Part shown: positions 2,053-21,842 of the stretch, one piece after another | How the letters are laid out: each line of letters opens with the position of its first letter | Position numbering within the stretch: the stretch's first letter is position 1 | Virus record (IMG/VR): IMGVR_UViG_3300028394_000274 | Span: 1 to 26,858 of that record | Reading direction: 5' to 3' (one strand) | DNA: 26,858 nucleotides | Source: a virus | Notes under the pieces: model-generated | What the model was told of the DNA's origin: nothing | The model's database searches: none | Seen by the model: only the letters and a program-made list of their open reading frames with translations | Made by a program: the position numbers and the translations under genes

Positions 2053-2322
2053 ATGAAAGGAATATTAAATTTTATTGATGCTTGGGGAGTTAGAATAATG
2101 TTTTTACTTGTAGTAATTATTTTCTTCAAAACCTGCACAACTAACACAAAAGTTCAAAATGTTAATGATAGTGTTGATTCATTATCTGTTAAACTTCGTA
2201 AAGAAATAAAAATTGAAGGTCTTAAATCTGAAAAAAGAGCTATTCAAGCGTCTGATAGAAAAATCTTAGATGTTAATAGACAAACTGAGATTGACCAAGA
2301 AATTTCTAAATTAGATAAATAA
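2053..2322 (+). CDS. Small single-span membrane protein
   Basis: The 89-residue product has one hydrophobic span near the N terminus (about 13-27, IMFLLVVIIFFK), then a Lys/Glu-rich, probably helical tail (30-89). There is no signal peptidase site, so it is most likely an inner-membrane protein with the tail on one side. Its stop overlaps the next ATG by one base (TAATG), which indicates translational coupling with the four-span membrane protein. Both lie just ahead of an amidase-like endolysin gene, so a holin or antiholin role is possible; this is inferred only from location and membrane topology. Confidence 0.65.
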   Translation: MKGILNFIDAWGVRIMFLLVVIIFFKTCTTNTKVQNVNDSVDSLSVKLRKEIKIEGLKSEKRAIQASDRKILDVNRQTEIDQEISKLDK

Positions 2323-3089
2323 TGAAAAAAATATGGAGTTGGGTTGTTGAACACCCTAATAGGGCTATGTTTTTGGTTCCTATACTGTTAGTTGCCGGAA
2401 TATCAATATCCCACGTTGTTTCTTGGTATAATATTGCAAACCCGATTAGTTGGGCGATTTATTTATCCATCGCAATTGAAATTGGTGCGATGACGGCATT
2501 GGTTGCTGCCACCAATAAAATTAAAGGGGGTGTTTGGGTAATGTTCGGATTAATAACTTTCATTCAAATGATAGGTAATATCTTTTTCTGTTATAAAGAA
2601 ATTGATGAAACAGGTGAGTTATTTAAATCGTGGATGGAACTAACCGGACCGGTATGGGAAATGTTAGGTTCTAAAGCTAACGACGTTATTGCGATGAAAA
2701 GATGGTTGGCGTTTTTAGAAGGAGGATTACTTCCGGTTATCTCATTAACATCTTTACATTTCTTCACCAAATACGATGATGGTAAAACTGATAAGGAAGA
2801 GGTAAAAGAGATAATCAAAGAAGTTATTGTGGAAAAAGAAGTAATTAAAGAGGTGATTGTTGAGGTTCCCGTGATTGAAGAAGTAATTGTTGAAAAAATA
2901 GTTGAGGTTCCGGTTGAAGTAATTGTTGAAAAAATTGTTGAAAAAATAGTTGAGGTTCCTATGTATCAATCTGAATCTATTGAAGAAGAAGATTACTTTG
3001 ACGAATTAATTGAAAATGAATATGTTAGTCCGGGAATGGATACACACGAACCACCACGTCCAAATAGGTTAAATTACGTTAAACCATAA
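2322..3089 (+). CDS. Multi-span membrane protein with Val/Glu/Ile/Lys repeat tail, holin candidate
   Basis: Of 255 residues, the first 150 contain about four hydrophobic spans (15-33, 43-63, 70-91, 129-148). They are followed by a repetitive tail (about 157-212) built from units such as EVIVEKIVEVPV, then an acidic, Pro-containing end. The repeat probably forms an extended or beta-rich charged rod in the cytoplasm. No enzymatic motif is visible. The gene is coupled to the upstream small membrane protein and sits 21 nt before the amidase gene. A holin-like role is possible but not shown; a structural or host-takeover membrane protein is equally compatible. Confidence 0.7.
   Translation: MKKIWSWVVEHPNRAMFLVPILLVAGISISHVVSWYNIANPISWAIYLSIAIEIGAMTALVAATNKIKGGVWVMFGLITFIQMIGNIFFCYKEIDETGELFKSWMELTGPVWEMLGSKANDVIAMKRWLAFLEGGLLPVISLTSLHFFTKYDDGKTDKEEVKEIIKEVIVEKEVIKEVIVEVPVIEEVIVEKIVEVPVEVIVEKIVEKIVEVPMYQSESIEEEDYFDELIENEYVSPGMDTHEPPRPNRLNYVKP
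2815..2960 (+). repeat. In-gene degenerate tandem repeat (GAAGTAATTGTTGAAAAAAT units)
   Basis: Units such as GAAGTAATTGTTGAAAAAAT and GTTGAGGTTCC recur several times. The stretch from GAAGTAATTG to GAGGTTCC occurs twice, the second time with an extra inner unit. It encodes the EVIVEK/IVEVP protein repeat and looks prone to slippage-driven length change. Confidence 0.8.
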
Positions 3090-3109: not shown

Positions 3110-3700
3110 ATGGAGATTATTAAATATGGTGAGTTCAAACCCGTTGGAAAACAAAAAAAGAAACACCAAATAATACTTACACACACATCAAGAAACATCA
3201 ACGACTATCTTCAGTCGTTGAAGTTTCGTTTTAATGGGGAGTTTAAACGAATCCCCAACTACATTATTACCCGAGATGGTAAAATCGTTCAATTATTGGG
3301 GAACACCGAACATTCGGAATACTTCAAAGACCCCAATATAAATCATAATTCAATTATTATATCTTTAGAAAATTTAGGGTGGTTACAAAAAGAACCGCTA
3401 ACTGACCATTACATTAACTGGATAGGTGATATTTATAAAGGTAAGGTGTTTGAAAAAAAGTGGAGAGATTACTTTTTTTGGCAACCATATACGGAAGAAC
3501 AAATACAAAGTACTTATTCCTTATGTGATAAATTGTTAAAAGAAATGAAGATTAAACAACAAATTGTTGAACATAATACAAAAATAACCGGAATTGAAAA
3601 ATTTATGGGGGTAGTTTCTAAAAGTAATTTTGATGCAAACTATACTGATTTAAGTCCGGCTTTTAACTTTAATGAACTATTAAAAAATATAAAAAAATGA
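3110..3700 (+). CDS. N-acetylmuramoyl-L-alanine amidase-like endolysin (Amidase_2 fold)
   Basis: The product would cleave peptidoglycan between MurNAc and L-Ala at lysis. The 196 residues fit an Amidase_2 layout: IILTHTS with the first Zn-ligand His (H25), a central YIITRDGKIVQLLGN core (51-65), SIIISLENLGW (81-91) matching the family's I.iElvn.G strand, VEHNT with the second His (H155), and TDLSPAFNF (179-187) at the place of the usual DPGPAFNW, which supplies the third ligand (D180 candidate). There is no signal peptide, so it would need a holin. It lies between membrane proteins and spanin-like genes and overlaps the next gene by four bases (ATGA). Sequence identity to classical amidases looks low, but the motif order is good. 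Confidence 0.75.
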   Translation: MEIIKYGEFKPVGKQKKKHQIILTHTSRNINDYLQSLKFRFNGEFKRIPNYIITRDGKIVQLLGNTEHSEYFKDPNINHNSIIISLENLGWLQKEPLTDHYINWIGDIYKGKVFEKKWRDYFFWQPYTEEQIQSTYSLCDKLLKEMKIKQQIVEHNTKITGIEKFMGVVSKSNFDANYTDLSPAFNFNELLKNIKK

Positions 3701-4320
3701 GTAATTCACACGATGAAATTAAAAAATTATTGGATGCTTCAAGAAGATTATTAAACAATAATAATATTAATGAAGATATCCGTAGACAATATGAGTTATT
3801 AACTGAACAAGGTGTTGATTTAACTGGTGATAATGTAACTAGTAAAATTAATATATCAAAATCAGTTGATGATACGATTGATTATGAAACTGCTGATACT
3901 GATGGTGATGGTTATGATGATGAAGAAGAATCGGGAGATGATAAAACTCAAGGTTATAGAATTTCTGGAGGTATTTTAGTATTACATGGAAAAGAACAAA
4001 CTGATTTAGAGTTAACGACTGATGAAAAGATAGCATTTCAAGAAACAATGGATGAATTTACTACAAACGTGTCTGATATAGTAGATTTTAATAAATTAAA
4101 TGTTTACTCAAATAATGTTGAGTGGTCAGGAAAACTAATTGAATATGATATTGAATTTTTCTTTTCAATTGGGGAAGAAAACGGTGTTTATATTGAAGGT
4201 GAAATGATAAAAGCTGATGATGAATTTATTACTCTTTTAACTAAATTAAAAAGTTATTATGAAAAATTTAAATCAAAATGGGCTAAAATATTAGCATCAA
4301 GAAAAAAAACTGAAAAATAA
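3697..4320 (+). CDS. Conserved hypothetical protein with Asp-rich calcium-type loop
   Basis: The product has 207 residues. The N-terminal 60 look helical (DEIKKLLDASRRLL), followed by an Asp-rich segment DTDGDGYDDEEESGDD (67-82) that resembles the DxDGDGxDD calcium loops of thrombospondin-type and EF-hand-like repeats. The C-terminal 120 residues appear to be a mixed alpha/beta domain ending in a basic helix (KLKSYYEKFKSKWAKILASR). No enzyme motif is seen. It overlaps the amidase by 4 nt and the next gene by 1 nt, so it is made with the lysis-type cluster, yet it could equally be a virion protein. Confidence 0.7.
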   Translation: MSNSHDEIKKLLDASRRLLNNNNINEDIRRQYELLTEQGVDLTGDNVTSKINISKSVDDTIDYETADTDGDGYDDEEESGDDKTQGYRISGGILVLHGKEQTDLELTTDEKIAFQETMDEFTTNVSDIVDFNKLNVYSNNVEWSGKLIEYDIEFFFSIGEENGVYIEGEMIKADDEFITLLTKLKSYYEKFKSKWAKILASRKKTEK

Positions 4321-4673
4321 TGGAAACAATTAAACAAAACATCCTTCCGTTAATTTTAATTGGTTTGGTGGTGTATAGTATTTTTAATACCAACACAATT
4401 AAAACGGATGTTCAAGGATATAAAGATAAAATAAATGGGATTCAAACAAAAGTTGATTCCGCCCAAGTGGTAAATAAAGAAATTGATGACAAAGTCACTA
4501 AAGTAAATGAAAAAATTACCGAAGTGACTAATGAAGTTCATCATATTGATAATACAATAACAATAGTAAAAAATAATACAAATGAAAAAGTTAATAATGT
4601 TAATCACATTGGTAATGTTGAGCTTGAGCTGTTATTCTCAAGAAGATACGACCAAAGTGGTGTTATCCACTAA
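4320..4673 (+). CDS. N-anchored coiled-coil membrane protein (inner-membrane spanin candidate)
   Basis: The 117-residue protein has one N-terminal span (about 8-23, ILPLILIGLVVYSIF) with no cleavage site, followed by a long polar helix rich in Lys, Asp, Val and Asn (28-100) with heptad-like spacing. This is the layout of an i-spanin such as lambda Rz: inner-membrane anchor, periplasmic coiled coil. The last 92 nt overlap the next gene in another frame, as in Rz/Rz1 pairs. It follows the endolysin gene by one gene. No sequence similarity to Rz can be claimed, since spanins are recognised by architecture. Confidence 0.65.
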   Translation: METIKQNILPLILIGLVVYSIFNTNTIKTDVQGYKDKINGIQTKVDSAQVVNKEIDDKVTKVNEKITEVTNEVHHIDNTITIVKNNTNEKVNNVNHIGNVELELLFSRRYDQSGVIH

Positions 4674-4983
4674 AATAGCAAGATTGGTCTATAAGGACTT
4701 AATAAAATACGATGGATGTAAAGAAGAGTTAAGTTTAACTCAACTTAAATTATCTAAAGTTGAGGAAAGAGAATTTCATAAAGATACTGTTATTAATTTA
4801 TTAACTGAAAAAGATAAAAATAATCAATTTATTATTGGTAAAAAAGATGAACAATTGAGTTTATCTCAAGAATTATCGTCTAAATTAGAAAAAGAATTGA
4901 AAGGGCAAAATAGAAAACTTTTTTTTTATAAAGCGTTGTCGTTCATAAGTTTGGTAACAACAACATATTTTATAGGTAAATAA
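4582..4983 (+). CDS. Signal-peptide/C-terminal-span coiled-coil protein (u-spanin-like candidate)
   Basis: The 133-residue product starts with a clear export signal (MKKLIMLITLVMLSLSC), where Cys17 is a possible lipid attachment site. SLSC is a poor lipobox because -3 is Ser, and a signal peptidase I cut near CYSQ-E is also typical of Bacteroidota. A Glu/Lys/Leu-rich helix follows (about 40-112), then a C-terminal hydrophobic span (114-131). An outer-membrane-type N terminus, periplasmic helix and inner-membrane C terminus together match a unimolecular spanin. The entire signal sequence is encoded inside the 3' end of the upstream gene in a different frame, which supports it being real. The start is the only ATG that yields a signal peptide. 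Confidence 0.7.
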   Translation: MKKLIMLITLVMLSLSCYSQEDTTKVVLSTKIARLVYKDLIKYDGCKEELSLTQLKLSKVEEREFHKDTVINLLTEKDKNNQFIIGKKDEQLSLSQELSSKLEKELKGQNRKLFFYKALSFISLVTTTYFIGK

Positions 4984-9919: not shown

Positions 9920-10840
9920 ATGGAAGATTTTTATCAAATATTGGGTGTTAATGAAAACTCCTCACAAGACGAAATAAAAAAAGCTTATAGAAAGTTAGCG
10001 GTAGAACATCATCCGGATAAAGGTGGTGATGAAAATAAGTTTAAACAAATTTCACAAGCTTATGATACAATAGGTGACGAAAATAAACGAGGTCAATATG
10101 ACAACCAACGAAGAAATCCTTTTGCGGGAATGGGTGGTGGTGGAGGAGGATTTAATCCTTTTGAGGAAATGTTTAATCAAATGAATGCTCAAAGAAGGAG
10201 AACAGTACCGGATAAAGTTATTGAGGTTATTATTGGGGCATTAGAATCTTTTAATGGTTCTGACAAAACAATCAACTATAGTAGAGAATCTAAGTGTGGT
10301 GGGTGTAATGGTAATGGAGGTGAACGAATAAATTGTTCTGTATGTAATGGTGAAGGATTTATTTTACAAAGAATTGGTACTGGATTATTTGTTCAGGTTA
10401 TGAGACAAACCTGTGGTGGTTGTAATGGTAATGGTTTTACATATAAAACAACCTGTGGTACTTGTCACGGAAAAACAACAATAACCACAAATGAAACTGT
10501 TTCTGTTAAGTTACCTCACGGAGTTGATGATGGTCAATTTTTAAGATTACAAGATAAAGGAGATTATAAAGATGGAGTATACGGTAATTTAGTATTAAGG
10601 ATAAAAGTACAAGAAGAAAGTGATTTTGATAAATCCGGAGATGATTTAATTTATAATGCTTATTTTAATTTAACTAATTTATCTAAAGATACGTTGGAAA
10701 TTTCACACCCACAAGGAAATCTATCAATTAAATTACCAAAAACTTTTGATACATCAAAACCCCTTAGAGTTAAATCTAAAGGGTATTATAATAGAGGTGA
10801 TTTGTTTATTAAATTATTTGTTAAATTTGAAAGGGGTTAG
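9920..10840 (+). CDS. dnaJ: DnaJ/Hsp40 co-chaperone, shortened
   Basis: DnaJ proteins stimulate the ATPase of host DnaK and deliver clients. Of 306 residues, 3-65 form a J domain with the essential HPD (31-33), followed by a Gly/Phe region (GMGGGGGGFNPF, 70-81). The zinc domain has four CxxC pairs (126/129, 139/142, 165/168, 179/182), and the C-terminal substrate-binding part includes VKLPHGVDDGQFLRLQDKG. It is about 70 residues shorter than bacterial DnaJ (about 375), mainly through a short linker and a trimmed C terminus, so dimerisation may be altered. All catalytic elements are present. It probably assists folding of virion proteins or redirects host chaperones. It is divergent from the gene at 9237 and convergent with the minus-strand gene behind it. 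Confidence 0.95.
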   Translation: MEDFYQILGVNENSSQDEIKKAYRKLAVEHHPDKGGDENKFKQISQAYDTIGDENKRGQYDNQRRNPFAGMGGGGGGFNPFEEMFNQMNAQRRRTVPDKVIEVIIGALESFNGSDKTINYSRESKCGGCNGNGGERINCSVCNGEGFILQRIGTGLFVQVMRQTCGGCNGNGFTYKTTCGTCHGKTTITTNETVSVKLPHGVDDGQFLRLQDKGDYKDGVYGNLVLRIKVQEESDFDKSGDDLIYNAYFNLTNLSKDTLEISHPQGNLSIKLPKTFDTSKPLRVKSKGYYNRGDLFIKLFVKFERG

Positions 10841-20522: not shown

Positions 20523-20733
20523 AAAAACACATTATATTGGTGATGATTGTAGTCAAACAATAATTAGGATATTCAAGTATCCAATTATTTTTAATAAATC
20601 ACCATTTAGTTACTCAATCATATTTGGTTCTCCTGGTGAGGGTTTAACTGTAACGACAAATCCATTATTCTTAGTAAGAAATGGATATAAAAAAAGTATT
20701 AAATTAGGTAAATATTATATATCAAAATTATGA
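20509..20733 (+). CDS. Small hypothetical protein preceding glutamine synthetase
   Basis: From ATG 20509 it encodes 74 residues beginning MWLSKKTHYIGDDCSQTIIR; a GTG at 20497 would add four more. The body is strand-rich and aromatic (SPFSYSIIFGSPGEGLTVTT, NPLFLVRNGYKKSIKLGKYY). No known motif. It overlaps the winged-helix gene by 14 nt and the glutamine synthetase start by 4 nt (ATGA), so its translation is tied to both. The role is unknown, but the nesting argues that it is a real gene. Confidence 0.6.
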   Translation: MWLSKKTHYIGDDCSQTIIRIFKYPIIFNKSPFSYSIIFGSPGEGLTVTTNPLFLVRNGYKKSIKLGKYYISKL

Positions 20734-21842
20734 AGATTCGTTTAGAGTATATTTGGTTGGACGGTTATAAACCGGAACCAAATTTAAGAAGTAAAATTAA
20801 AATTGTTGACACATTACCAAAAGAGGTTAGTGATATCCCTGCGTGGGGATTTGATGGTAGCTCAACTATGCAAGCCGAAGGATTCTCTTCAGATTGTTAT
20901 CTTAAACCTGTTAGAATGTATAAAAAAGGTAATACTAATTTGGTTTATGTTTTATGTGAGGTGTTGAATAAAGACAATCAACCACACAAAACTAACGACA
21001 GAAGTAAATTAGGTAATGAAGACACCGATTTTTGGGTTGGGTTTGAGCAAGAATACTTTATTCGTTCAGGACACAACAAGGATATATTGGGGTTTGAAAG
21101 AAGTAGTAATGTTGAACCACAAGGTAAATACTATTGTGGTGTTGGTGGACAAATAGTAGGTAGAGAGTTAAGTGATGAGCATTTGGATTATTGTCTTGAC
21201 TTGGGTATCAATGTTGAAGGAACTAACGCTGAGGTTGCATTAGGACAATGGGAATATCAAATATTCTCCAAAGGTAAATTAGCTGCGGCTGATGACTTAT
21301 GGATGTCGCGTTACATCTTACATAAACTAGCCGAGAAAAGAGGTTATTCAATTGAACTTCATCCAAAACCAATTATATGGGGTGAGTGGAATGGTTCAGG
21401 ATTACATACAAACTTCTCAAACAAAAAGATGAGAGAAGTAGGTGGTGAGAGTTATTTTAAATCAATCTTCAATTCATTTGAGACAAGAAAAGAACTTCAC
21501 ATTGACAACTATGGTTCAGATAATCATTTAAGGTTAACTGGTAAATTTGAAACACAATCAATAGATAAATTTAGTTGGGGTGTATCAGATAGAGGTGCGT
21601 CTATTAGAGTTCCTAAATCAGTTGGTGAAACTTGGAAAGGTTACCTTGAGGATAGAAGACCATCATCAAATGCTAACCCATATAAAGTTATTGGTGTTAT
21701 CTATGACGCATTGACTTTCGCAGACCAATTAGAAACAACCATTCACGCAATGTATGGTGACGTGGATACATCAAAAATAAAAGAACAATTCTCAGGGATT
21801 ATGTCTGATGAAGAATTATTAGGTGAATATAGAGAAGAATAG
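20730..21842 (+). CDS. Glutamine synthetase, type II-like (GSII)
   Basis: The enzyme makes glutamine from glutamate, ammonia and ATP. The 370-residue protein, close to GSII length and shorter than GSI, keeps the key motifs in order: WGFDGSST (39-46), GFEQEYF (104-110, metal-binding Glu), YYCGVGG (134-140), GQWEYQI (172-178), NGSGLHTNFS (221-230, ammonium/ATP site with His), SDRGASIRVPK (286-296), EDRRPSSNANPY (307-318). The set looks catalytically intact. No adenylylation domain is present, as in GSII. It is last in a four-gene operon (19579 on) with a winged-helix-like gene. A complete GS in a phage-like context is rare; supply of glutamine for nucleotide synthesis is a plausible purpose. 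Confidence 0.93.
   Translation: MKIRLEYIWLDGYKPEPNLRSKIKIVDTLPKEVSDIPAWGFDGSSTMQAEGFSSDCYLKPVRMYKKGNTNLVYVLCEVLNKDNQPHKTNDRSKLGNEDTDFWVGFEQEYFIRSGHNKDILGFERSSNVEPQGKYYCGVGGQIVGRELSDEHLDYCLDLGINVEGTNAEVALGQWEYQIFSKGKLAAADDLWMSRYILHKLAEKRGYSIELHPKPIIWGEWNGSGLHTNFSNKKMREVGGESYFKSIFNSFETRKELHIDNYGSDNHLRLTGKFETQSIDKFSWGVSDRGASIRVPKSVGETWKGYLEDRRPSSNANPYKVIGVIYDALTFADQLETTIHAMYGDVDTSKIKEQFSGIMSDEELLGEYREE

Follow-up and report, generated by a model that had tools for sequence, protein, structure and literature searches.

The window analysed here (the whole stretch of 26,858 nucleotides, a virus contig of 26.9 kb) belongs to a phage whose host is probably a Flavobacterium-like bacterium. Its lysis region holds two overlapping genes, hereafter A and B, which lie behind a probable endolysin gene. 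The features of this region are the following:

2053..2322, + strand: small N-anchored coil protein that accompanies the amidase, with a weak match to a Rz-like spanin profile (phrog_739, E 0.004)
2322..3089, + strand: multi-span membrane protein 5' of the amidase, possibly a holin judging by the ORF list and the neighbourhood
3110..3700, + strand: Amidase_2 protein, probable endolysin (PF01510, E 2e-10)
3697..4320, + strand: conserved 207-aa protein between the amidase and A (ORF list, neighbourhood comparison)
4320..4673, + strand: gene A, 117 aa, kept in all related loci (ORF list, alignments, AlphaFold2 model)
4341..4391, + strand: predicted membrane anchor of A, residues 8-24 (hydropathy)
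4582..4983, + strand: gene B, 133 aa (ORF list, alignments, AlphaFold2 model, 103 distinct homologues)
4582..4673, + strand: dual-coding overlap of A and B, 92 nt, +1 frame (codon-position diversity)
4582..4638, + strand: predicted signal peptide of B, residues 1-19, all within A (invariant S19/Q20; Q-rule)
4620..4649, + strand: conserved C-terminal motif of A, E-L-E-x-[FL]-F-x-x-R-Y, within the overlap (alignments)
4630..4632, + strand: Cys17 codon of B, at -3 of the predicted signal peptidase I site (102 distinct homologues)
4924..4974, + strand: C-terminal hydrophobic segment of B, residues 115-131, a predicted membrane segment with a positive N-flank (hydropathy)

The stop codon of the 207-aa protein gene overlaps the start of A (TAATG), and the Amidase_2 gene is kept two genes 5' of A-B in many relatives. 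The possible holin returned no family from Pfam or PHROGs profile searches; its C-terminal part is a run of EVIVEK/EVPVE-like repeats (2754-3065). The small protein at 2053-2322 was considered as a paralogue of A, whose profile matches it (E 1e-12), but it belongs to a family of its own, and the match is therefore taken as anchor-plus-coil similarity. Other genes of the window encode a sigma-70-type factor with regions 1.2, 2, and 4 (226-1026), which lies directly 5' of the lysis region in the window's relatives, a complete DnaJ-type co-chaperone with J, zinc, and C-terminal domains (9920-10840), and a glutamine synthetase with both Pfam domains (20730-21842), unusual for a phage.

Protein A was initially annotated as an N-terminal anchor followed by a periplasmic-type coiled coil, a description supported by hydropathy and by the AlphaFold2 model (pLDDT 77.7), in which the hydrophobic anchor leads into a long helical region (helices 2-25, 31-94, and 99-115). 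By prediction, A thus holds the single N-terminal transmembrane domain, the type II orientation (N-in), and the periplasmic coiled coil that characterize i-spanins, and it is predicted to be an i-spanin-like inner-membrane protein. It has no periplasmic cysteine and no match among the curated lysis profiles. Pfam and PHROGs profile searches with A and B returned weak coiled-coil or chance matches only (for B against PHROGs, phrog_1275 at E 0.23), a Foldseek search with both models gave no useful match, and no relative was found in the bacterial genomes searched with one B.

Both open reading frames were found as first described, at 4320-4673 and 4582-4983. The first 92 nt of B are shared with A, whose stop codon they include; B is read in the +1 frame and has its codons 1-19 wholly within A, so that its signal peptide is indeed encoded out of frame inside the first gene. 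Conservation in relatives, proposed earlier as a check, bears this arrangement out: A and B are both present, adjacent, and overlapping in the +1 frame in 199 of 199 related loci, with overlaps of 74-140 nt, and never occur singly among the homologues. These loci, which comprise 103 distinct B sequences, derive from viral-contig searches with A and with B plus the window and the cultured Flavobacterium phage immuto, some contigs having been fetched repeatedly and many coming from related samples.

The overlap also bears the mark of selection on both frames. Among 49 distinct sequences with a 92-nt overlap (pairs 80–97% identical), the mean pairwise difference per site at third codon positions of A falls from 0.217 outside the overlap to 0.038 inside, and that of B from 0.278 to 0.107. 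This low third-position difference shows that both frames are selected and that the signal-coding start of B is real. A scan by topology only, which looked for an N-anchored coil protein overlapped by a protein with a signal and a C-terminal tail, recovered 11 pairs in 2.56 Mb of whole contigs and none in the reversed sequence. The opposite view, that the overlap reflects a fortuitous open frame or a mis-called start and that B truly begins downstream, could draw on immuto, where gp84 is deposited with a start (46085) 42 nt into the B frame. Nevertheless, the upstream start and signal are kept in all 103 distinct B sequences and are under strong B-frame constraint, which already contradicts this view and makes it hardly credible. 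The deposited start is rather 42 nt too late and cuts off the signal peptide, the conserved start being at 46043 (immuto B, MW353176.1 46043-46444; L056:8001-8402). Wrong gene starts are an annotation error reported for overlapped spanins (PMC6139136).

The export signal of B was first read as carrying a cysteine (SLSC) suggestive of a lipoprotein. The signal itself stands, but the cysteine is not conserved. In 102 distinct B sequences the signal could be aligned, and none of them deviates from Ser at -1 or Gln at +1 (S19 and Q20), whereas position -3, that of the supposed lipobox cysteine, is occupied by Ser (79), Cys (10), Thr (6), Gly (4), or Val (3); in immuto B it is Ser. In Bacteroidetes, signal peptidase I substrates follow the so-called Q-rule (PMC5837995), and B shows the corresponding sequence, its Gln at +1 being preceded by small residues at -1 and -3. 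The signal is therefore predicted to hold a signal peptidase I site of this type, cut after Ser19 to expose Gln20.

These observations weigh directly on the proposal that B is a lipoprotein with a C-terminal span, that is, a unimolecular spanin (u-spanin) overlapped with an i-spanin-like gene. The cysteine in the signal region of the window's B and of about 10% of the distinct homologues, the C-terminal hydrophobic segment, and the occurrence of true u-spanins in Bacteroidota phages all speak for it. Yet o- and u-spanins are defined by their lipobox (Kongari et al. 2018, PMC6139136), and SLSC departs from the consensus [LVI][ASTVI][GAS]C at lipobox positions -3 and -2, two of the three positions, while in 92 of the 102 distinct homologues Ser, Thr, Gly, or Val replaces the cysteine next to an invariant S|Q. 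Moreover, one or two cysteines are found in the mature part of 73 of 100 distinct B sequences, contrary to u-spanins, where 0 of 58 have a periplasmic cysteine (PMC6139136). Most B proteins hold a DGC motif at the hinge between two helices, and a single periplasmic cysteine, such as the one following this DG, is typical of two-component spanins and not of u-spanins (PMC6139136). A u-spanin identity for B is thus very improbable. Judged from its sequence, B is not a lipoprotein, and therefore the combination of an Rz/Rz1 overlap with a u-spanin layout, which the initial annotation had put forward as a new arrangement, is absent here: the cysteine sits at -3 of a signal peptidase I site and is missing from about 90% of the distinct homologues. 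Neither does B qualify as an o-spanin, an outer-membrane lipoprotein encoded within or near the i-spanin gene, as it has no lipobox.

The long helix and C-terminal span formerly assigned to B held up in part. In the AlphaFold2 model (pLDDT 83.2; as for A, built from alignments of 80–85 sequences), the N-terminal signal is followed by a short helix (30-42) and a helix spanning residues 44-132 that includes the C-terminal hydrophobic segment. In all members, the hydrophobicity of the mature protein peaks in this segment; it is strong in the marine clade and marginal elsewhere, with a median 17-mer sum of 3.3 on the biological scale compared to -1.1 for the anchor of A. The median charge of its flanks is +3 on the N-side and +1 on the C-side, opposite to the bias that the positive-inside rule prescribes for an N-out/C-in inner-membrane span. 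The tail of B is predicted to be a membrane segment, of either the inner or the outer membrane.

The genetic neighborhoods of A-B fall into three arrangements. In the lineage of the window, the order is amidase, 207-aa protein, A, and B. In the second, a GH19 endolysin (PF00182) and a Phage_holin_4_1 holin (PF05105) precede A and B, the start of A overlapping the end of the holin gene; immuto (gp79-gp84) shows this order with two extra genes in between. In the third, A and B are followed by the large terminase gene and lie far away from the cassette of GH19 and holin genes. A search started from the holin, in which A and B were not used, found A-B behind the holin in 62 of 70 loci with enough flank, nearly always ending ~340 nt behind it; only three holin loci held neither A-B nor the replacement gene described below, two of them with A-B elsewhere on the contig. 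A search started from the amidase found A-B in 47 of 77 loci, and 16 amidase contigs, from a set of incomplete contigs, held neither by profile. Seven apparent A-only matches in the output of these searches correspond to the 2053-type protein. A-B thus shows the linkage to holin and endolysin genes typical of two-component spanins, with the exception of the terminase-linked lineage, and this context upholds the earlier description of a probable lysis-related coiled-coil pair in a Bacteroidota phage. Judged by gene context, a lysis role of A-B is well supported.

In relatives without A-B, its slot is often filled by a single gene encoding a protein of ~210 residues (S210), found behind the holin in 5 of 8 and behind the amidase in 14 of 30 such loci (examples by alignment: L313:3419-4054, L374:4209-4835, and L409:4216-4824). 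Like the A-B pair, whose place behind the holin or amidase it takes, S210 presents an N-terminal inner-membrane anchor with a periplasmic domain. Contrary to A-B, it is one gene instead of two, has no sequence similarity to A or B, and ends in a C-terminal Gly-rich beta-like region; an invariant cysteine lies at the membrane border. S210 could possibly be a single-chain bridge from the inner to the outer membrane. A distant relative (E 1.8e-5), gp087 (phrog_25644), is encoded by the crAss-like Cellulophaga phage phi14:2 directly behind the GH19 endolysin gene of that phage. No locus holds both S210 and B; S210 was absent from the 22 A-B contigs searched, where two positive controls were detected, and B was absent from the 18 S210 contigs searched.

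That two genes are exchanged for a single unrelated gene of a membrane-anchored protein, and this in two different lysis settings, gives the strongest indirect indication of a cooperation between A and B in a lysis step. The absence of either gene from close relatives whose lysis clusters are intact had been named as grounds for rejecting the pair. A and B are indeed absent from some relatives, albeit jointly, and many of these carry S210 in the slot; this joint absence, with another membrane-anchored protein in place, supports A-B as one unit. S210 also provides a ready comparison set for determining which features are needed.

The topology-only scan revealed as well a new, diverged pair on contig G046, where A' and B' (118 and 164 aa) overlap by 80 nt in the +1 frame just 3' of an M23 peptidase gene (PF01551). 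The signal of B' follows the Q-rule (VYAQ|D). The A profile aligns collinearly with A' over the coil and as far as the C-terminus (hhalign, E 4.9e-5), and B' matches the B profile in the signal only. Among the five contigs with neither A-B nor S210 that were scanned whole or nearly so, such a pair was present only in G046.

If B carries no lipid, a lipoprotein partner might be encoded elsewhere. An embedded or nearby o-spanin was ruled out since, by simple lipobox rules rather than SignalP, no strict-lipobox ORF exists in the window, nor near A-B in immuto. A conserved lipoprotein across whole A-B contigs was likewise rejected, its occurrence being patchy and unlinked. Tiny lipoproteins of 53–75 residues with Asp/Ser/Thr/Val-rich repeats, unlinked to the lysis genes, were observed in several of the phages studied (L199:19887-20114; L221:10756; L244:9569; L279:6488; L460:12736). 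One could consequently imagine a three-component spanin, in which A-B forms an i-spanin-like sub-complex and an unlinked small phage lipoprotein serves as the outer-membrane partner; immuto holds one clear lipoprotein, gp30 (75 aa, lipobox LVSC), ~26 kb from A-B, and similar 53–75-residue lipoproteins occur in several A-B phages. This is decidedly unlikely, as the immuto lipoprotein is matched in only 6 of 22 A-B contigs, a 178-kb A-B contig has no lipobox ORF under the criteria applied, and lipoproteins of this type do not follow A-B, one being present in an S210 contig.

Other Bacteroidota phages do hold lipobox-bearing spanins. U-spanins have been annotated in the flavophages Ingeline and Nekkels (PMC8776804), and a 2025 survey, in which o- and u-spanins without a lipobox were filtered out, found unimolecular spanins as the only kind in Bacteroidetes phages (PMC12596118). 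Nekkels1_70 combines a lipobox (MMGC) with a C-terminal span, a true u-spanin layout, and gp49 of Flavobacterium phage 11b (L470:28129-28593), whose gene immediately follows a GH19 gene, has LFSC plus a C-terminal span and is a candidate unannotated u-spanin by sequence. B was considered as a relative of the Nekkels protein and discarded, as it shows no profile similarity to Nekkels1_70. In the Bacteroides phages B124-14 and B40-8, Croceibacter phage P2559S, Flavobacterium phage 11b, and Nekkels_2, a topology scan detected no pair resembling A-B. In P2559S (L469:27300-28065), gp29, an N-anchored coil protein, lies right behind the endolysin and is followed by gp30, which has an outer-membrane-like tail. 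B124-14 and P2559S are listed among the spanin-less phages (Kongari et al. 2018, PMC6139136).

Based on features read from the sequence (the frames, the overlap and its dual coding, the co-conservation, the lack of a lipobox, the lysis linkage, and the replacement in the slot), A-B is probably the outer-membrane-disruption pair, equivalent to a spanin, of a T4-like Bacteroidota phage lineage. The more specific proposal, which is tentative, is that of a lipid-free two-component spanin with both partners helical, exchangeable in relatives for a single N-anchored, beta-tailed protein, where B, exported through signal peptidase I and the Q-rule and held by its tail, would allow the outer membrane to be broken without a lipoprotein. 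In the general reading of A-B as a spanin equivalent, A would be anchored in the inner membrane by its N-terminus, with its predicted coiled coil extending into the periplasm as in i-spanins. B would be exported by Sec and cut by signal peptidase I before Gln20, which, given the Q-rule site, would probably be cyclised to pyroglutamate, and would form a periplasmic coiled coil ending in the C-terminal hydrophobic segment, presumably inserted in one of the membranes. A and B presumably associate through their helices in the periplasm. After degradation of the wall by the endolysin, the pair would act upon the outer membrane, perhaps through oligomerisation and by pulling on the membranes or fusing them.

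Several observations run against a spanin function. Neither the A nor the B family includes a protein annotated as a spanin, and both A and B lack a recognisable outer-membrane anchor, so that the defining bridge of spanins is missing. In addition, the B tail is weakly hydrophobic in most members and its charge bias goes against the positive-inside rule, a third lineage holds A-B beside the large terminase gene, and 16 amidase contigs, from the set of incomplete contigs, hold neither A-B nor S210 by profile. A-B could instead be a lysis-timing or antiholin-like regulator, or serve another envelope function such as superinfection exclusion, and simply travel with the lysis genes. Two apparently membrane-bound proteins devoid of an outer-membrane anchor would suit such a role, as would the overlap of A with the end of the holin gene in one lineage and the ability of the pair to relocate to the terminase gene. 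However, the linkage to three unrelated wall hydrolases fits a core lysis step better, and so does the replacement by S210, with its distant relative behind the phi14:2 endolysin, when compared to a holin-specific regulation, which makes the regulatory or envelope function rather unlikely.

Were A-B to act as a spanin equivalent, the outer membrane could be opened without a phage lipoprotein. A lysis-linked pair lacking a lipobox would be invisible to spanin surveys that require one (PMC6139136, PMC12596118), and pairs of the A-B type could account for part of the "spanin-less" phages. B is also a concrete candidate for the unconventional i-spanin named by Kongari et al. 2018, who considered a type I inner-membrane protein as theoretically possible in this role (PMC6139136). 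No description of the A-B pair was found in the literature searched.

Among known systems, the unimolecular spanins (T1 gp11, Nekkels1_70, and, by layout, phage 11b gp49) share with B the export signal, the periplasmic domain, and the hydrophobic C-terminal segment. Unlike them, B has no lipobox, usually holds a cysteine in its mature part, and is always accompanied by the partner gene A; furthermore, the T1 gp11 family is mostly beta, whereas B is alpha-helical. The overlapped two-component spanins of the P2 and lambda Rz/Rz1 class are also represented by an overlapping gene pair behind the holin or endolysin gene, where the first protein is an N-anchored coiled-coil inner-membrane protein, the second gene begins within the first in another frame and runs past its end, and most second proteins hold a periplasmic cysteine. 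The difference lies in B, which, in place of a lipobox and lipid, has a signal for signal peptidase I and a hydrophobic segment at its C-terminus. Due to the lack of a lipid anchor, A-B belongs to neither the o-spanins nor the u-spanins, but in its way of working it most probably resembles a two-component spanin.
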